28,810 nucleotides of DNA from a virus: positions 1-28,810 of the IMG/VR virus record IMGVR_UViG_3300035698_022442. One strand, given 5' to 3'. The notes under the pieces are model-generated. The model was not told where the DNA came from. It was given only the letters and a program-made list of their open reading frames with translations, and did not search any database. This document shows positions 7,159 to 26,130 of the stretch, piece by piece. The first letter of the stretch is position 1. The number at the start of each line of letters is the position of its first letter. A program made the translations under genes and the position numbers.

Positions 7159-8217
7159 ATGGAAGCAATATTCAAAGGATATGAAGATGGATTCAGCATC
7201 GATAAGTGCAAAACACGATTCGACGCTGGAGCTATAGATAAAGATAATTTTGGCGGTTATTCAAAAGAATACTATAACCCAATGAAAAAGGTCAATAGGA
7301 TGATTGAAATTGCTAAGAACTCTTATAATACACAGAAAGCATCAATAGATTCCCAAACAGGTGGAGCAGGAACTACAGGAACTGCATTAGTCCCAGTATA
7401 TCCAGATCCAAACATTGTGAATCGAACAATACGACAAACACCGTTGAGAAATATAACTCCACGAAGAGCCGTAAAAGGTTTAACGTATGATTATATACCA
7501 CTCACAGCAAAGGGCGGTGCATTTTGGGCAGCTGAAAATGGAGCCTTAAATGAAGTCACAGATACATATGACAGAGTCTCAGTGGCTATTAAGTTCCTTT
7601 ATGCAAAGGGATTGATATCAGGCCCGGCTATTGCAGGTATGCGAGGATTTATCGATCCTACACAACTTGATCTAGGCGTAAAGACTGATAGCATATATGA
7701 AGCTGAAGAAGATGCATTAATCAATGGAGATGCAACGACAACTCCTCTTGAACCAAGTGGAATGATTAAATCGATTTCGACCAATACGACAAATTTGTCT
7801 GCTGGCAATCCAACACTACCTGGAATAAGAGCAGAGATTGCAACAACATTCAATGCTAAAGGATTTCCAACAATTGCAATAACAGATGCAACGACTCATA
7901 ACTATGTTAAAGGTTTATTGTTAGATATTCAAAGACAGGTTACAAATCCTTCAGAGGGTATACTTGGTTTTGGTATTCCAGATGCATTTGAGTTTGATCA
8001 GTTGATGTTTATAAAGGATATCTTTATGCCAACAGCAGCCTCATCAAAAAGAATTTTATTTCTAGATATGAGATATATATTCTTCGGAGTCTTACAAGAC
8101 TTGACATATGAGGAGAAGTACACCGACCAGGATGGCTTTGTTTATCTACTGAAGGAATATCTGACAGTCGTCAACACATTCGAAGCCGCATCTTCACAGA
8201 TGTATGGTATAGCATAG
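7159..8217 (+). CDS. major capsid protein, HK97 fold
   Basis: 352 aa. Its position directly after the protease-scaffold, its size, and the segments LVPVYPDPNIVNRTIRQTPLR, YDYIPLTAKGGAFWAAENGA and the P-domain-like IAITDATTHNYVKGLLLDIQ fit HK97-type shell proteins. Residues 1-60 are helical and charged and may be an N-arm or a cleaved delta region. The start is set by GAGGT at 7148-7152, six bases before the ATG, overlapping the upstream stop. It is followed by two small paralogous genes. Confidence 0.85.
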   Translation: MEAIFKGYEDGFSIDKCKTRFDAGAIDKDNFGGYSKEYYNPMKKVNRMIEIAKNSYNTQKASIDSQTGGAGTTGTALVPVYPDPNIVNRTIRQTPLRNITPRRAVKGLTYDYIPLTAKGGAFWAAENGALNEVTDTYDRVSVAIKFLYAKGLISGPAIAGMRGFIDPTQLDLGVKTDSIYEAEEDALINGDATTTPLEPSGMIKSISTNTTNLSAGNPTLPGIRAEIATTFNAKGFPTIAITDATTHNYVKGLLLDIQRQVTNPSEGILGFGIPDAFEFDQLMFIKDIFMPTAASSKRILFLDMRYIFFGVLQDLTYEEKYTDQDGFVYLLKEYLTVVNTFEAASSQMYGIA

Positions 8218-8232
8218 AGAGGTAATGGAAAA

Positions 8233-8514
8233 ATGGTAGCCATAGTCGAAACATTTCGGAAAATCGCAGTTGTTGGTGACTTAAAAATCATCACAATACA
8301 AACTACTGCTGCAGCTGATACAAGCCATACAATTGACCTTAACTCAGATGCAACCAATGGTAAGGGTGTTGTTATGACCGAAATCTTGAACTCATATCTT
8401 CAAGATGATGCAGGAACAAATATTGATGATTTAGCATTTGTCCCAGCAACAGGTATTTTAACAATGCCGACAATAAGCACTGGAATCCATAATATAACGA
8501 TAATCGGGTACTAA
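8233..8514 (+). CDS. small beta-rich protein A, likely capsid decoration
   Basis: 93 aa, beta-rich (KIITIQTTAAADTSHTIDL; TISTGIHNITIIGY). AGGTAAT lies just after the capsid gene's stop and seven bases before the ATG. It is a tandem paralogue of the next gene: about 65 of 93 residues are identical by eye. The position behind the major capsid protein and the small size suggest a capsid decoration or cement protein, by analogy with other tailed viruses. No specific family is recognised. Confidence 0.65.
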   Translation: MVAIVETFRKIAVVGDLKIITIQTTAAADTSHTIDLNSDATNGKGVVMTEILNSYLQDDAGTNIDDLAFVPATGILTMPTISTGIHNITIIGY

Positions 8515-8515
8515 A

Positions 8516-8797
8516 ATGACTGCAGCACCTGAGACATTTCGGAAATTTGGATTTACGGGAGACCTGAAATTTATATCAATACAAACAACCGCAGCAGCGG
8601 CATCAACAGACACAATTGATTTGTTAACTGATGCAACTGACGGTAAAGGTGTTGTTATGACTCAAGTCTTAAATACTTATTTGCAGGACGATGCAGGAAC
8701 AAATGTTGCAGATTTGGAATTTGATCCAGCAACGGGTATTATAACCTTGCCGACAATAAGCACTGGAATCCATAATATCTTAGTAACAGGATATTAA
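8516..8797 (+). CDS. small beta-rich protein B, paralogue of A
   Basis: 93 aa, the second copy of the tandem pair. It shares ETFRK, IQTTAAA, GKGVVMT, YLQDDAGTN and PTISTGIHNI with the first copy and differs mainly in residues 2-14. It starts one base after the previous stop with no clear ribosome binding site, so translation is probably coupled. An oligo-T terminator follows. The pair may form hetero-oligomers or decorate two kinds of site on the shell. Confidence 0.65.
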   Translation: MTAAPETFRKFGFTGDLKFISIQTTAAAASTDTIDLLTDATDGKGVVMTQVLNTYLQDDAGTNVADLEFDPATGIITLPTISTGIHNILVTGY

Positions 8798-8798
8798 A

Positions 8799-8816
8799 TT
8801 TTTTTATTTTTTTATT
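8799..8816 (+). terminator. oligo-T archaeal terminator
   Basis: Two T7 runs separated by A, directly behind the stop of the second 93-aa gene. No stem-loop is needed for archaeal termination. Readthrough into the next gene would carry the structured RNA at 8825. Confidence 0.6.
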
Positions 8817-8824
8817 ACAACTGT

Positions 8825-8893
8825 ATCATATCGCCTGGGACGATATGGTGAAAGCACTCTGTAAAATACAGAGGGGCAATGACTCCCAGGGAG
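8825..8893 (+). ncRNA. structured 5' leader with loop-to-leader pseudoknot
   Basis: Hairpin P1 ATCATATCG/CGATATGGT (8825-8849; one G-U) has a 7-base loop CCTGGGA (8834-8840). All seven loop bases are complementary to TCCCAGG at 8884-8890. Between them lie a second hairpin CTCTGTA/TACAGAG with an AAA loop (8857-8873) and unpaired GAAAGC and GGGCAATGAC. The 3' pseudoknot strand overlaps the ribosome binding region (GGGAG 8889-8893) of the gene starting at 8902. A competing hairpin CTCC-CAG-GGAG (8883-8893) would mask that site. The layout resembles preQ1-II or fluoride riboswitches in outline, but the sequence matches neither. Confidence 0.6.
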
Positions 8894-8901
8894 AAAGAAA
8901 A

Positions 8902-9966
8902 ATGGGATTAGGATTTAGAACAATACCAACAGGAGGTGTAGCAGCACCACCTTATACAAATGGGCCGTATCAATTCAGTGAAGATATTACATTTGCAAAT
9001 GCTTCAATGGGTAGCGGTGGAGAAGGAGCATCATGGTATGTTGACGGTACAAATGGAGCATCAACGAATGATGCCAAAAGTTGGTCAACAGCTATAGATA
9101 CAATTCAAGGTGCAATTGATCTGGCAGGAGCTGGAGATACAGTATATGTTACATCACAATTGATTACTGATTTTACAGGAGATCCTACAAGTTATGCTGA
9201 AAATGTGACAATTACAGCAGGATTGAATAATTTATCAATCATTGGTGTAAGCCGAGGGAGAACCCAAGGTGGATTGCCCCAACTTAAAGTTGGAAGCACA
9301 ACCACACAGGCACTTTTAACCGTTAATGCAGCAGGATGTTTGATCTTAAACATGGGTTTAAATGGAATAGGTGCAACAGGTGGTGGAATACTTCTTGATG
9401 ATGATAATTCAACAACAACAGCTTTCGGAACAACTATAGCAAGTTGCCATTTCAAAAACTGTGTAGGTACAACAGCTACTAATGCAGCAACTGGTGGAGC
9501 AATTCAATGGTCAACTGAAGGTAACGCATGGCAAGTTCTTATTTCTGGAAACAGATTTTATAAAAATGTTGGAGATATAGTTTTGCTTGGGACATCAAAT
9601 TCAGTTCCTCAAGATGTTGTTATTGAAAATAATGATTTCAGTGGGCCTGCAGCAAATACAGATTGTAATCTATATTTGAAAGGTGGTTCTGGAATGAATG
9701 GTGTTGTTATTAAAAACAATACATTTTCAGCAATTCCAGCAATTGGTTCAGCAACAAATCATCAGTGTCTTGCATTAACAGGATGTGTAGGTATTATGGC
9801 TGGAAATTTGTTTGCAGCTACAACCGCTGAAGGTGAAACAGAAAGAACTTTCGGTGCTGCAGGGGATGAATTAGTTCCAGTAACGGTATTTATGGCTGCA
9901 AATTATGGAGAGTTTGGAACTGGTGTAGGTGCAGGTTTAATATCTGGAGAAATATTCAGAACGTAA
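8902..9966 (+). CDS. parallel beta-helix surface protein
   Basis: 354 aa. After an N-terminal region comes WYVDGTNGASTNDAKSW followed by TIQGAIDLAGAGDTVYV, the entry signature of pectin-lyase-fold, DUF1565-type right-handed beta-helices. Short beta rungs such as NVTITAGLNNLSIIG, VLISGNRFYKN, VVIENNDFSG and GVVIKNNTFS follow. There is no signal peptide. It is likely a capsid-bound or tail spike protein, possibly glycan binding. The ATG at 8902 is chosen over an in-frame ATG at 8845 because it follows GGGAG by eight bases; 8845 lies inside the leader RNA. Confidence 0.7.
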   Translation: MGLGFRTIPTGGVAAPPYTNGPYQFSEDITFANASMGSGGEGASWYVDGTNGASTNDAKSWSTAIDTIQGAIDLAGAGDTVYVTSQLITDFTGDPTSYAENVTITAGLNNLSIIGVSRGRTQGGLPQLKVGSTTTQALLTVNAAGCLILNMGLNGIGATGGGILLDDDNSTTTAFGTTIASCHFKNCVGTTATNAATGGAIQWSTEGNAWQVLISGNRFYKNVGDIVLLGTSNSVPQDVVIENNDFSGPAANTDCNLYLKGGSGMNGVVIKNNTFSAIPAIGSATNHQCLALTGCVGIMAGNLFAATTAEGETERTFGAAGDELVPVTVFMAANYGEFGTGVGAGLISGEIFRT

Positions 9967-10844: not shown

Positions 10845-11183
10845 ATGGAATTCAAAAACATAACAAAAAAAGTAATCAATATAAAAGTAGATGGTGAATG
10901 GAAAGCTGTTGAACCAAACAAAACTATTATACTTCCAGTATATGTTGGAGTAAGACAAGAAGGTTTTATAGGATTAGAGAAACTAGAAGAACCTGAAGAA
11001 CCTGAGAAAGAACTTGAAATCATTGAACAACCTGAAATGCTTGAAGAAGAAGAGTTAGAAAAACTCACAAAGGATGGTTTGAATGATTATGCCGCTAAAA
11101 TTGGATTAGAGGAAGTCAAGTCATCAATGAAAAAATCTGATATGATTGAAGCTATTCTTGAATACCAAAATGAAGATGAATAA
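10845..11183 (+). CDS. protein with C-terminal HeH/SAP-like helix domain
   Basis: 112 aa. Residues 1-45 are beta (KVINIKVDGEWKAVEPNKTIILP). A Glu/Pro-rich linker (EEPEEPEKELEIIEQPEM) joins a C-terminal helix-extended-helix: LTKDGLNDYAAKIGL ... SSMKKSDMIEAILEY, the pattern of HeH/SAP domains common at phage protein termini. The start at 10845 follows GGGTGA; a GTG at 10836 is the alternative. It overlaps the next gene by a few codons. Confidence 0.6.
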   Translation: MEFKNITKKVINIKVDGEWKAVEPNKTIILPVYVGVRQEGFIGLEKLEEPEEPEKELEIIEQPEMLEEEELEKLTKDGLNDYAAKIGLEEVKSSMKKSDMIEAILEYQNEDE

Positions 11184-14142
11184 ACTTTTTTCAATCTTTG
11201 TATTTTTTATTTTACTTAGTGTAGCGGTTATTGCCTGGACTCCTCCAAGCGATGCTAATTTTAGAAACTATTATAATCTTTATAATGTTAAGAATGCAAA
11301 TGGTACAAATGCAACATTTATTAATTTTTATGGAACATTATTTGGAAATTTTACACCAAGTGGAGATGTAGATATGAATGGGTATTCAATATTTAATGTT
11401 ACAGATGTTAATGCAACAAATGCAAACATAACAAATATTGATGTTACAAATATTGATGTTACAAATATTGATGCTATAAGTATTGATGCTACAGATGTTA
11501 ATGCAACAAATGCAAACATAACAAATATTGATGCTACAGAAATAGATACAACAAATTTAAGTGCAACAAATATTAGTGCAATAAATATAAGTGCTACAAA
11601 TATAGATACAACAAATTTAAGTGCGACAAATATAAGTGCTGATAATATTACTGGAACCGAAATATATCAAAATGGAAATGTTGTTTTAGATAGTTCAGAT
11701 GAAGCTGATTTAAATGTTAATAGTTCAAATTATTGGGCCGGAGTATCTTCTTTCAGTCCATCACATTTTTATAATGCTATAAATGTTCTTACTTTTAATG
11801 TTACATGGGCTAGTACCGTTTGGTGTGCATTAACAGGGTGCACAATGTCTGGAAATATAGCAATGGGTTCTAATGATATTACAGGAGCAGATACAATAAC
11901 AGCAACAGGATTAGGGACATTTGATAGTCTTACAACAGGTATTGCAGCAACAGAGTTATACCAAATGAATCAAGCAGTAAGAACAAGTGATGATGTAGAA
12001 TTTGCTAATATAACTCAAAGTGGAAATCGTGTGCTTGATACAACTGATGAAGCAGATTTAAATGTTAATAGTTCAACTTGGTGGGCTGGAGTGTCTTCTT
12101 TCAATCCAACACATTTTTCAGATATTATAAATGTTCTTACTTTTAACACAACATGGGCCAATACTATTTGGTGCACATTAACTGGATGTACAATGATAGG
12201 AGATATAGCAATGGGCACAAATGATATCACAGGAGCCGGAGCTATATCAGCAACTGGAACAGGAACCTTTGGAAATCTTACAACAGGTATTGCAGAAACA
12301 GAATTATATCAGATGAATCAAGCAGTAAGAATGAGTGATGCGGTACTTTTTGCCAATGCAACAGCACAAAATATTATTAGAAATGGAACAGTTGTTGATA
12401 TCAGATCATTTGGTGCAGAATCAAATGATGGAGTATCAGATCAAGCAGCACTTCAAGCAGCTATAAATTCTCAAACAGAAAATTATAGTGTATATATTCC
12501 TCCTGGAGTATGGGATGTTGATGATGTAACAACAATTGCGAATACAAAAATAAATATATTAATTTTTGGAGAAGGAGAAGCATCTGTTATAAGACTTATG
12601 GATAATTCAGATACTGATATATTTGTAGTAGATGGAAATGGAGATGGAACCCGAGATGGTATTTTCTTTAAAGATTTTGTTATTGATGGTAACAAAGCAA
12701 ATCAAGGTGCAAATGGAGAAGGTATATATTTAGATGCCTATGTTGATTGGGTAATTATTGATAACTTACATATCTATGATACATTTGAAGAAGCTATAAG
12801 AGCAAATAGTCCACGAGATCTTCTTATAATTAATAATATTATTGAAGATGCAGGTGATGATACACTTGAATTATATAAGCCTAGAAGATTTCAAGTTCTT
12901 GGCAATAGAATTTATAGATCAAATAAGCATGGTATTTTTGCTGATACAAATGATGATTGGGCTATTCAAGATGGAGTTGTTGCAAATAATTTTGTAACAG
13001 GTGTAATTTCTGATGAGAAAAGTGGAATACATATAGGCGGTGGTCAGGTAGCTACTCGCATAGTTGTTTCTGGAAATATAGTTACTGATGCTACAAATAC
13101 TCCAATTGGTATAAATGGAATATTTGTTAATGCTGATTTTTCTTCTATTACTGGTAATCAAATATATGATGCTACAGGTGCTGGAATTGAAGTTAAAGGA
13201 GAGCATATAAGTATTACAGGAAACACAATTCATAAAAATATTAAAGCTCAAGGTACAAGTTCTGGAATTTCTGTGAATAGCGCACAACATTTAACTATTA
13301 GCGGTAATGAAATTTATAATACAACCCTTAATGGAATTAAACTTGACGGTACACTACATGAATATGTGACAATAACAGGCAATACAATAGGAAATAGCAA
13401 AGGAGCAGGTGTAAAAATAACAGCTGATGGTGGAGAAACAGCAAGATTTATTCGTGTTGAAGGTAACACAATATATGATGATAATACAACTCACTTTCAA
13501 TTATATGGTGTACAATGCTCAGGAGTTGGAACTTTAGAAAATATTGTAATATCAGATAATAACATGTATAATACCGGTTCAAATGTTACAGGATGTCCTG
13601 TTGGATCAACATACACTTATTCCAATCTTGTTCTTAATAATAGTATATGTATTGGTGGAAAATGTATTAATCAATGGTCTGAAGTAAATGGAACTGGTTC
13701 AAGCAATATAACAGATGTAACAGGTACAGCACCAATAGCAAGTAGTGCTGGAGGAACACCTGATATAAGTTTAATAGCATGTGGTAATACAGAAATATAT
13801 AAATATAATACAACAAGCAGTGCTTGGGAATGTAGAGCAGATGAAAGTAGTGGTGGCGGTGGAACAGCTTATGATCAAAGTTTAAATACAACTGATGCTG
13901 TTGTATTTTTAACTGTAGATACAGGTCAAGGAGCAAATGAGCTTTATGATATGGATCAGAATGTATTGGAAGCTTCAGATGTTACATTTGATAATATAAC
14001 AGTCGATGATATTGAGATGGGTACATATTTAACCACACCTATCCCATGGATTCAAAACTTTAACAGCTCACATTTTACATGTATGGATTCAAATGGATCC
14101 ATGCTTATATGTATGGGATGCGGATTGCCAAGGTGCACTTAA
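11170..14142 (+). CDS. giant exported beta-helix tailspike-like adhesin
   Basis: 990 aa. Order of parts: Sec-type signal peptide (about 1-22, FSIFVFFILLSVAVIA); pentapeptide-like stretch (about 75-160) with units such as TNIDV, TNLSA and TNISA; two tandem 116-aa repeats (nt 11671-12366, 86/116 identical by eye); a pectate-lyase-3-type entry (FGAESNDGVSDQAALQAAI ... YIPPGVWDV); about 12 PbH1-like beta-helix rungs (VVSGNIVTDATNTP, ISITGNTIHKN); and a C-terminal LNTTDAVVF repeat ending in Cys-rich MLICMGCGLPRCT. N-x-S/T sequons are frequent, fitting archaeal N-glycosylation. A signal peptide is odd for a tail protein, so it may be displayed on the cell. Start 11170; 11176 is also possible. Confidence 0.75.
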   Translation: MKMNKLFSIFVFFILLSVAVIAWTPPSDANFRNYYNLYNVKNANGTNATFINFYGTLFGNFTPSGDVDMNGYSIFNVTDVNATNANITNIDVTNIDVTNIDAISIDATDVNATNANITNIDATEIDTTNLSATNISAINISATNIDTTNLSATNISADNITGTEIYQNGNVVLDSSDEADLNVNSSNYWAGVSSFSPSHFYNAINVLTFNVTWASTVWCALTGCTMSGNIAMGSNDITGADTITATGLGTFDSLTTGIAATELYQMNQAVRTSDDVEFANITQSGNRVLDTTDEADLNVNSSTWWAGVSSFNPTHFSDIINVLTFNTTWANTIWCTLTGCTMIGDIAMGTNDITGAGAISATGTGTFGNLTTGIAETELYQMNQAVRMSDAVLFANATAQNIIRNGTVVDIRSFGAESNDGVSDQAALQAAINSQTENYSVYIPPGVWDVDDVTTIANTKINILIFGEGEASVIRLMDNSDTDIFVVDGNGDGTRDGIFFKDFVIDGNKANQGANGEGIYLDAYVDWVIIDNLHIYDTFEEAIRANSPRDLLIINNIIEDAGDDTLELYKPRRFQVLGNRIYRSNKHGIFADTNDDWAIQDGVVANNFVTGVISDEKSGIHIGGGQVATRIVVSGNIVTDATNTPIGINGIFVNADFSSITGNQIYDATGAGIEVKGEHISITGNTIHKNIKAQGTSSGISVNSAQHLTISGNEIYNTTLNGIKLDGTLHEYVTITGNTIGNSKGAGVKITADGGETARFIRVEGNTIYDDNTTHFQLYGVQCSGVGTLENIVISDNNMYNTGSNVTGCPVGSTYTYSNLVLNNSICIGGKCINQWSEVNGTGSSNITDVTGTAPIASSAGGTPDISLIACGNTEIYKYNTTSSAWECRADESSGGGGTAYDQSLNTTDAVVFLTVDTGQGANELYDMDQNVLEASDVTFDNITVDDIEMGTYLTTPIPWIQNFNSSHFTCMDSNGSMLICMGCGLPRCT
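11400..11533 (+). repeat. 44-bp perfect direct repeat within pentapeptide-coding region
   Basis: Positions 11400-11443 and 11490-11533 are identical (44 bases, 90-bp period), with 15-bp units such as ACAAATATTGATGTT between them. Unequal exchange here would change the adhesin length in frame by 30 residues. Confidence 0.8.
11671..12366 (+). repeat. tandem duplication, 2 x 348 bp, in the adhesin gene
   Basis: Two units (11671-12018 and 12019-12366) encode 116-residue modules that both contain EADLNVNSS, WAGVSSF, LTGCTM and TELYQMNQAVR. I count 86 of 116 identical residues. Each unit has two Cys in WC-x-LTGC, which could form a disulfide. Confidence 0.8.
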
Positions 14143-14909
14143 TGGCAAAACTTGAAGTAAAAGATGGAGTATACGGGGCAGCCATTGTAATATTAATAAC
14201 TATAATGGGTATTCAACTTTTAAATGTAGATGGATGGTATTATTGTGAAATTGAAAACACAATGAAAGAGTGCTCAGAGCTTAGATCATATGGAATTCCA
14301 GATGCAAAATGTATTGGAATAGATGGAGTAAATGATATCTGTACTTCAGGAGGAACTCGAGCACCATGGAAACCCCTTGATAATTATATTAATATAACCC
14401 CTGATAAAGAAGTTGTCGTTGAATCATTGCAGGAATGTCATATTGAATATTATGATAAATCAGTTGCTGTTTATGAAACATGCAATCAATCTGTATATAA
14501 TTATAAAGATTGTATAGAAACTCATAAAAATGGAACATGCATAAATTGGTCAACTTATGATATTGAATATCCTTGTTATAATAGAACAGAAATTCAGGAA
14601 AAGAATTGGACAATATGTGAACCAATTGGATTTAATATCATATTTGGAGGAAAAAAAGAATATAACATCACAGGAGATTGTTGTGGATATTTTAATGAAA
14701 CCCAGCAAATTATGTGCAAAGAAAAAATCAATGGTATTTGCAATCCTAAATGCCAACAATCTTCACTTGATCCAGATGAGTATGATGAATATTGTATGAT
14801 TTATCAAATTAATGAAAAAGATATAACTCCTAGCATGGTTGGTGAATATGACTATGTTAAAAATAATCAGATTAAATTATCAGATATAACGATGGAAAAG
14901 ATTAAATGA
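14142..14909 (+). CDS. Cys-rich single-pass membrane glycoprotein
   Basis: 255 aa. A transmembrane or uncleaved signal helix lies at about residues 9-27 (GAAIVILITIMGIQLL). The remainder is an ectodomain with 16 cysteines, including an adjacent CC pair, and about eight N-x-S/T sequons (NQS, NGT, NWS, NRT, NWT, NIT, NET). It is expected to be a disulfide-bonded, glycosylated protein outside the cell. The start at 14142 is set by AGGTG six bases upstream; the ATG overlaps the adhesin stop (TAATG). It is coupled with the adhesin and the LamG gene. Family not recognised. Confidence 0.65.
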   Translation: MAKLEVKDGVYGAAIVILITIMGIQLLNVDGWYYCEIENTMKECSELRSYGIPDAKCIGIDGVNDICTSGGTRAPWKPLDNYINITPDKEVVVESLQECHIEYYDKSVAVYETCNQSVYNYKDCIETHKNGTCINWSTYDIEYPCYNRTEIQEKNWTICEPIGFNIIFGGKKEYNITGDCCGYFNETQQIMCKEKINGICNPKCQQSSLDPDEYDEYCMIYQINEKDITPSMVGEYDYVKNNQIKLSDITMEKIK

Positions 14910-16096
14910 ATAAAGCAATTATAATTTTAGTATTTTGTATATTGGTTATCTCTAGTTATACATATGCTGATGCTATTCAAGATAATCTTATATCATGGTA
15001 TTCATTTGATACTGATTATAGCGATAGTAGTTCAAATAGTGCTGATGCTATATCAGGAGGTACAGGTCAGGTTTTTACTGGTAATACTTGTAAAGTAAGT
15101 ACATGTTTAAGTTTATTAGATACAGATGCGAATTCATATGTAAATTTAAGTGCTTTAGTGCCATATCTTGTAGGAAATACTTCTGGTTCTGTAGTTTTTT
15201 GGATGTACCAAAATGAAACTATAGCTCAACAATGTCTTTATAGTTTTGGTGAAGATGATGCTAATTATCTTAATATTAATACTAGAGCAATATCATTAAA
15301 TTCATTACGTGGATATGGAAAAGATGTTGGAGGAGCTTTGATAAGTGATTCAGACACTGATGAAATGCTACCTATTCAAACATGGTATTTTGTAGCGATA
15401 ACACATCACGATAATTTATTGCAAATATATGTAGATGGAGATTTGGTAGAAAATTCTAGTAATTATTGGGCAGATGATTGGACTGTTGATACTGTTGAAT
15501 TTGGGCGATATTTTTATTCTATTGCTGATCCAAATTTTTTAGGATTAATAGATGAATTAGAATTTTATGATGATGCTTTACATCCAACAAATGTTACATA
15601 TCTTTATAATAGTGGAAATGGTTTATCTTATTCAGATGTGTATGGTACAGTTACAAATATGTCTATAACCAATACAACATATAATATGACAAGTGATGGA
15701 GGTTGCACAGCTTGGGGAACTAATACATCTGAAAATTGTAATACAACAGATGGAACTCCAACTTTAACATTTAATACAAATCTTGTAGCTGATTGTAGTA
15801 TTAGAGCTAGTACATCAGATTCAGAAAGTTTTCCAGAATATAATGCGACTATAGCTTGCGGAACAACAGGCGGAAAAAGTCATATATGCACAGTTTATGA
15901 TGCTGATAAATTAGATTTTGGTCAAAATTATTTATATGCTTCATGCACAGGCAATGTAAATTCGACCAGTTCTCCCCTTTATATAAATATGACAGCAGGC
16001 GGTGGAGGCGGTACAGGTTTAGTAAGCTGTATTCAAACAGTTGGATTAGGATGTGGGGCAATTATAACAAATGATTGTGCTTCGATAATAACATAG
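14906..16096 (+). CDS. exported LamG/concanavalin A-like lectin-fold protein
   Basis: 396 aa. A cleavable signal peptide (MNKAIIILVFCILVISSYTYA) is followed by a LamG-type jelly roll at about 25-230: NLISWYSFDTDYSDSS, GSVVFWMYQNE, WYFVAITHHDNLLQIYVDGDLVE and FLGLIDELEFYDDALHPTNVTYLYNSGNG, the usual LamG ending. The C-terminal 160 residues are Thr- and Cys-rich with several sequons. It probably binds glycans or surface layers. The start overlaps the previous stop (ATGA). It is the third exported product in a row in this island. Confidence 0.75.
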   Translation: MNKAIIILVFCILVISSYTYADAIQDNLISWYSFDTDYSDSSSNSADAISGGTGQVFTGNTCKVSTCLSLLDTDANSYVNLSALVPYLVGNTSGSVVFWMYQNETIAQQCLYSFGEDDANYLNINTRAISLNSLRGYGKDVGGALISDSDTDEMLPIQTWYFVAITHHDNLLQIYVDGDLVENSSNYWADDWTVDTVEFGRYFYSIADPNFLGLIDELEFYDDALHPTNVTYLYNSGNGLSYSDVYGTVTNMSITNTTYNMTSDGGCTAWGTNTSENCNTTDGTPTLTFNTNLVADCSIRASTSDSESFPEYNATIACGTTGGKSHICTVYDADKLDFGQNYLYASCTGNVNSTSSPLYINMTAGGGGGTGLVSCIQTVGLGCGAIITNDCASIIT

Positions 16097-25731: not shown

Positions 25732-26130
25732 TTATACAAGCTGATTTATAGATATACGGCAGTTGATTATCCCATTATATGACCTAGAATCAAGCAAAGC
25801 ATTCCTATCAAACTGTTCTTTTGTCTCATAATAATTCATCCAGGCTTTGGAAGTACAACACATTAATATGGTTCGGGTGAAGTTTTCTTTACTATATAGT
25901 CTGATGTCCTCTAGAAGCTCCATACAGCTCCCGTAATAGGACTTCCAATCAGATTCAATAATCCTATGCCTGAATTTTTTCTTGCCTTTAAGGGGCTTTA
26001 ATTTGCGTTTGAACCAAAATTTTTTCTGTCCTATATAGAACCGCCCATTGGCTTTGTTTTCAATACGGTAAATAAAGCCAACAAATTTACTTATATCCTT
26101 GGGTGCCCCTTGCCATTCAGTCTCGGTCAC
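25732..26130 (-). CDS. GIY-YIG family endonuclease
   Basis: 132 aa. The N-terminal catalytic motif is GFIYRIENKANGRFYIG (about 18-34) and continues QKKFW. A basic stretch (KRKLKPLKGKKKFRHR) and ESDWKSYYGS follow, as in phage-encoded GIY-YIG proteins related to T4 Seg-type enzymes. It probably nicks or cuts DNA, as a freestanding homing enzyme or in DNA processing. GTG start at 26130 with GAGGT six bases upstream; it overlaps the ligase end by 14 bases. Confidence 0.8.
   Translation of the reverse strand: MTETEWQGAPKDISKFVGFIYRIENKANGRFYIGQKKFWFKRKLKPLKGKKKFRHRIIESDWKSYYGSCMELLEDIRLYSKENFTRTILMCCTSKAWMNYYETKEQFDRNALLDSRSYNGIINCRISINQLV

Follow-up and report, generated by a model that had tools for sequence, protein, structure and literature searches.

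A conserved pseudoknotted leader adjoining the Shine-Dalgarno sequence of a viral spike-type gene

In a 28,810-base virus record (the window, that is, the whole stretch of DNA analysed), a short untranslated region precedes a gene for a predicted surface protein, and the question raised by this locus is whether the region acts as a structured RNA and, if so, on what. A first-pass annotation had described it as a riboswitch-like pseudoknot with a competing hairpin masking the ribosome binding site, and every strand of that description is found in the sequence where it was placed. Relatives were examined for covariation and for conserved loop complementarity. Both are present, and they support the existence, at the Shine-Dalgarno sequence (SD), of a cis-regulatory leader with a conserved pseudoknot. 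The switch attributed to this leader and the nature of its regulator call for a different reading, which is developed below.

Architecture and covariation of the leader

Aligned sequences show the leader (8820-8904; this and the features described next are on the + strand) to be an H-type pseudoknot; the hairpin carried by its long loop is dispensable. It opens with a conserved 5' flank, ACUGU (8820-8824; alignment and RNAalifold), which is mostly unpaired, a U8824-G8850 pair being possible according to RNAalifold. The first stem, P1 or S1, brings together the 5' strand ATCATATCG (8825-8833) and the 3' strand CGATATGGT (8841-8849) through nine pairs, one of them G-U. Its AUCA/UGGU base is almost invariant among leaders and is replaced by CUCU/AGGG in L151. 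The loop closed by this stem, CCTGGGA (8834-8840), is fully complementary to TCCCAGG downstream (8884-8890). The resulting pseudoknot helix, S2, pairs CUGGGA (8835-8840) with UCCCAG (8884-8889), the latter extendable to G8890; it measures 6-7 bp, less in reduced forms, and its duplex alone is worth -8.6 kcal/mol in the window. The first loop base (8834) is the proposed 1-nt loop L1 according to a comparison of loops across relatives: it is A or G and unpaired in most 8-nt loops, and it can pair with G8890 when the loop has 7 nt. The long loop is A-rich, starts with a conserved GAAA (8850-8853 in the alignment), usually ends with AAAC or similar and usually bears the inserted hairpin P2 (8854-8877). 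P2 consists of two basal GC/GC pairs (8854-8855 with 8876-8877), an A/GG internal loop and an upper stem pairing CTCTGTA (8857-8863) with TACAGAG (8867-8873). The SD, GGAG (8890-8893), comes directly after S2, and the start codon ATG occupies 8902-8904.

To collect relatives, viral contigs were scanned for the downstream protein or its N-terminal tag, for the capsid protein and for leader patterns. The capsid gene, used as an anchor, led to 37 relatives, and 30 leaders were assembled, that of the window included, each located before a spike-type gene. Covariation was computed on 22 aligned leaders, over 25 pairs and against 500 shuffles. Standard pairs fill 91.8% of the base-pair cells versus 76.8% after shuffling (reached by 0/500 shuffles), changes on both sides affect 18 of the 25 pairs versus 12.5 (1/500), and the covariation score is 0.527 versus 0.247 (0/500), all these column-based figures understating the pseudoknot because MAFFT shifts the 7-nt loops by one column relative to the 8-nt loops. 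When the 3' partners are slid by 1-3 columns, pairing falls to 35-46%.

The signal extends to P1, to the inserted hairpin and to the loop-leader helix S2, all three of which covary. In P1, 93.9% of the cells are paired and four pairs change on both sides; in P2 all nine pairs do so, the two basal ones included (GC/GC, AC/GU, CG/CG). P2 is absent in four relatives (L061, L151, L219 and L221), all of which retain S1 and S2. The helix S2 is supported not only by covariation but by re-dealing its 3' strands among the loops, which gives 84.5 +/- 4.5 versus 116 observed (0/5000). About 15 sequence versions of it were recovered: CUGGGA/UCCCAG, CUGGGA/UCUCAG, CUGAGA/UCUCAG, CUUGAGG/CCUCAAG, UCAAGGA/UCCUUGA, GCGAGU/ACUCGU, CUGAGC/GCUCAG, CCAGGGA/UCCUUGG, CCAGGAA/UUCCUGG, CUCAGAG/CUCUGAG, UUUGAGG/CCUCAAA, CUAUGA/UCAUAG, UCAGAG/CUCUGG, UCGAG/CUCGG and CUUGG/CCAAG. 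On a capsid-protein tree, tips with the window's version are scattered, some of them close to where the main group begins, and S2 is changed at about 12 tips; some forks of this tree are poorly supported, so that the number of independent changes is approximate.

Chance complementarity, or a repeat conserved at the DNA level, could produce such an outline in a single genome, and the nested fold of the window taken by itself is indeed only mildly unusual (z -2.23, 5/200 shuffles being equally stable). The compensatory changes found across the 30 leaders nevertheless refute this explanation, which retains practically no probability. It is the comparative data from relatives, and not the fold of one sequence, that place the structure beyond chance, and the leader is almost certainly a real, structured cis-acting RNA.

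The spike-type gene and its genomic setting

Upstream of the leader, the window encodes a portal protein, a Mu-F-like head protein, a prohead protease and an HK97-type major capsid protein (7159-8217, +). The capsid gene matches Phage_capsid (2.9e-05) and SU10_MCP (5.6e-04) in Pfam, both just below the curated cut-offs, and its PHROG matches are head proteins. It is followed by two tandem copies of a 93-aa decoration-like gene (8233-8797, +; copies at 8233-8514 and 8516-8797), a direct repeat with 74% DNA identity. Relatives contain one or two copies, and searches of Pfam and PHROG with this gene gave no match. A T-rich tract (8799-8816, +) then precedes the leader, as it does in nearly all relatives; devoid of a strong hairpin, it is probably an archaeal-type terminator, a function suggested by sequence. 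The slot of the leader is flanked by the decoration-like genes on one side and, on the other, by a gene whose product has a conserved N-terminal tag.

This gene (8902-9966, +) has no match in Pfam or PHROG. A start at ATG 8845, as in the open reading frame initially listed, was rejected, the matching ATG of L001 running into a stop before the gene, and a start at 8902 is preferred from this comparison. The product begins with a tag of about 30 aa, GFRTxPxGGxAAPPYTNGPYxFSE (8902-9010 in the window, and in relatives), after which comes a beta-helix domain. In an AlphaFold model based on an alignment of 17 sequences (pLDDT 74, pTM 0.79), successive strands run from residue 44 to residue 332, the first 40 residues being of low confidence. 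Foldseek matched this model best to right-handed beta-helix enzymes; phage tailspikes appeared lower in the list. The earlier reading of a beta-helix surface gene is sound as judged from this model, a role in receptor binding being putative. Leader and tag are retained among relatives whose C-terminal parts differ completely, being of beta-helix, 'LEEYF' or other types. One tag combined with unrelated C-terminal domains is the pattern expected if the tag anchors the protein in the virion and the distal domains are exchangeable.

Further along the window, a 998-aa protein (11146-14142) has a signal-peptide-like start, a Beta_helix domain (Pfam 2e-16), 15-nt repeats in 14 registered copies with an NITNIDxT-like product, and many N-x-S/T motifs; it is followed by a LamG-type protein (14906-16096). 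On the opposite strand, a small open reading frame (25732-26130, -) matches both phrog_447 (6e-33, annotated as NAD synthetase) and homing-endonuclease PHROGs, discordant annotations that probably correspond to a GIY-YIG-like homing endonuclease.

The distribution of the leader was followed at the level of whole records. Among 20 records searched in full, the 15 positive ones contain exactly one copy each, with no second leader in the same genome. The leader is absent in the relatives L053, L056, L059, L062 and L063. A reduced leader-like element (E 0.02) precedes a gene without the usual tag in L221. The leader is also present in L011, whose very divergent capsid protein groups with those of L003 and L009; this placement points to a leader of great age or to one that was transferred, perhaps as a leader-spike module. 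Outside this virus group, viral matches to the leader pattern fail the covariance model, and pattern matches in three GTDB genomes (Lentimicrobiaceae, Halalkalibacter, Kosakonia) are not recognised by it; no capsid relative was found in GTDB with the capsid profile or among INPHARED phages, and the 20-nt leader matches in INPHARED are due to chance. As for the host, the T-rich tracts without strong hairpins and the ERCC4 nuclease found, together with family B polymerases, in sister contigs hint at an archaeon, possibly; PCNA_N gave no match and Hjc a 13.4-bit match, below threshold.

Probable action at translation initiation

The end of S2 is located 0 nt from the SD in 30/30 leaders, the first loop base being taken as L1, and 7-nt CC-loops allow S2 to gain one more pair, with the first G of GGAG. 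The distance from the start of the SD to the ATG, measured in 26 leaders, is 10-14 nt. These two spacings tie the RNA to initiation, and an action of the leader at this step of translation is likely. Single-molecule work has established that a pseudoknot separated from the SD by 1 nt sterically represses 30S binding and that a spacing of 4 nt relieves this effect (PMC9410914), a bacterial precedent to be applied here to a virus whose host is possibly archaeal. On the basis of this precedent and of the fixed 0-nt spacing, the folded knot is favoured by analogy, with somewhat better than even confidence, as the repressed (OFF or brake) state. In the Tte preQ1-I riboswitch, whose SD is GGGAG, the aptamer holds only the 5' G (PMC10907184); the leader has identical letters at this place and an identical overlap.

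The first-pass annotation had proposed the opposite polarity, in which the start site is free when the knot forms and the 3' strand of S2, once opened, folds onto the SD (CUCC/GGAG) and blocks it. The letters of this hairpin, CTCC-CAG-GGAG, are present at 8883-8893. Since the 3' strands of S2 are complementary to the SD in most sequence versions, the open state could indeed mask it, and the mean unpaired fraction of the SD rises from 0.61 in the nested ensemble to 0.91 when these strands are withheld (27 leaders). The hairpin is weak, however: its energy is -0.6 kcal/mol in the window and 0 in L149, L001 and L061, where it is missing; in other relatives it ranges from -0.2 to -3.1, mostly no better than shuffles at 5%. 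It does not qualify as a conserved OFF state, the SD of the window being already 93% unpaired in the nested ensemble. Furthermore, with no spacing from the SD, S2 would be an obstacle to the 30S subunit in its own right (PMC9410914). The polarity was probably reversed in that proposal, and the switch in this form is unlikely.

The explanation preferred here, to which about an even chance is given, is a translational operator that limits spike synthesis and is probably tuned by a viral or host protein; polarity, repression and regulator are all putative. It is supported by the survival of S2 when P2 is lost and by the single-copy location of the leader before the spike gene. The leader would serve as a cis-acting translational control RNA made of S1 (9 bp), a 1-nt loop, S2 (6-7 bp) and the long A-rich loop. 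The folded knot would hinder the 30S subunit at GGAG, and initiation on the spike gene would depend on the ease with which the knot opens. As a basal effect, less spike would be made than products of the capsid genes immediately upstream. Tuning would come from a trans-acting factor that grips the conserved bases, namely the ACUGU flank, the AUCA/UGGU base of S1, GAAA and AAAC. The case for such tuning, evenly balanced, is suggested by the conservation of unpaired bases, and a viral or host protein would be a likelier factor than a metabolite because the sole target is a virion gene. Because leader and tag are kept when the C-terminal domain is exchanged, the control would concern the dosage of the spike and not the substrate of one enzyme. 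It would not be essential, since several close relatives have the same kind of gene without leader.

Two other explanations dispense with part of this scheme or narrow it. A constitutive element without any regulator, which would set a fixed initiation rate or protect a processed 5' end from 5'-to-3' exonucleases, is possible but somewhat doubtful. The T-rich tract before the leader, the single copy per record and the free variation of the S1 and S2 sequences, provided that pairing holds, are all consistent with it, whereas the strong conservation of the unpaired ACUGU and GAAA is not, and the exact 0-nt spacing exceeds the needs of stability. The protein-factor branch of the preferred operator can also be narrowed to an autogenous one, in which translation is repressed by a virion protein, be it the spike or another one, that binds the knot in the manner of T4 gp32. 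This version is tentative and rather improbable, though more plausible than a metabolite riboswitch: leader and tag travel together while the remaining protein changes, and T4 gene 32 offers a precedent (PMC3014915), but the tag is predicted to be disordered, Pfam and PHROG searches gave no RNA-binding domain, and the leader-like element of L221 lacks the usual tag downstream. A broader scenario, equally speculative, combines a new RNA family governing spike dosage in tailed viruses, possibly archaeal, in which a virion or other viral protein would sense its own level via an SD-fused pseudoknot, with a different pseudoknot of the same role in the corresponding slot of sister viruses.

Known pseudoknots and a second candidate RNA

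At gathering thresholds, Rfam 15 returned no match in the window. With E up to 10, the best overlapping match was freshwater-2, at 15.1 bits versus a gathering threshold of 49.9, and preQ1-II (RF01054) was not among the matches. The leaders of relatives had no Rfam match either, and HDV-like and pistol ribozymes had no covariance-model match over the leader. The earlier statement that no known class could be recognised is borne out by these searches, and the likeness to preQ1-II is confirmed at the level of the outline, an H-type topology with a hairpin in the long loop. In preQ1-II, such a stem-loop is also found in an H-type pseudoknot upstream of the start codon (PMC10907184); the leader differs by an SD located outside the helix and by a stem-loop that is dispensable in four relatives. 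Like the leader, the direct-occlusion riboswitches preQ1-I (Tte) and SAM-II have an H-type pseudoknot that reaches the SD or ends inside it, the overlap or abutment that characterises this group being found at 0 nt in all 30 leaders. Their sequence and sizes are nevertheless different, and the leader has neither a metabolic target nor an Rfam match.

A metabolite riboswitch of an undescribed class is very improbable. The preQ1-II-like outline and the conservation of unpaired bases speak for it; against it, the leader occurs only before a virion gene and never before a metabolic gene, no Rfam relative emerges even at E up to 10, and the base of P1 is replaceable (L151). The exchange of C-terminal domains, one of them a beta-helix, behind a conserved tag also speaks against metabolite control. 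The term riboswitch, in its metabolite sense, has received no positive support.

In rpsO, a cellular ribosomal protein gene, a pseudoknot in the translational operator controls initiation. This E. coli operator, that of the S15 gene, is mentioned in a 2010 review (PMC3014915). Its sequence is unrelated to that of the leader. The same review describes the T4 gene 32 pseudoknot as possibly the sole viral example. The autoregulatory pseudoknot of T4 gene 32 is the nearest viral precedent: in T4, T2 and RB69, as here, a viral pseudoknot lies in the leader of a phage gene and is followed by an unstructured initiation region. The two differ in their product, gp32 being an ssDNA-binding protein and the present one a spike, and in position, the T4 knot preceding its start codon by 67 nt (PMC3014915) and the leader's knot lying 0 nt from the SD. 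The standby pseudoknot of tisB is needed for correct translation initiation (PMC7708055). Unlike the leader, it acts positively and lies close to the 5' end of the mRNA, a long way upstream of a ribosome binding site that is sequestered; its sequence also differs. In the open-licence literature, searches for pseudoknot leaders of archaeal viruses or of phage structural genes brought up nothing closer.

The leader thus represents a genuine and apparently uncatalogued viral RNA family, a kind of device that is known but rare in viruses. If true, its autoregulation would be a second viral pseudoknot case beside T4 gene 32. The geometric rule by which S2 ends where the SD begins gives a testable prediction on the amount of spike made, and the persistence of leader and N-terminal anchor, while the distal domain swaps, would mark a module for surface-domain exchange.

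In sister viruses, the same slot is occupied by another candidate pseudoknot, represented by three sequences only (L052:6385-6467, L065:2533-2615 and L163:1414-1504). Rfam gave no match to this candidate for L163 and L153, the latter being the contig of L052, and most matches of the class-2 leader pattern were unrelated. The candidate combines a loop complementary to a downstream strand (UAUGU/ACAUG, UAGGU/ACUUG and UGCGU/ACGCG) with a second hairpin carrying a UACA loop, after which GGAG follows.
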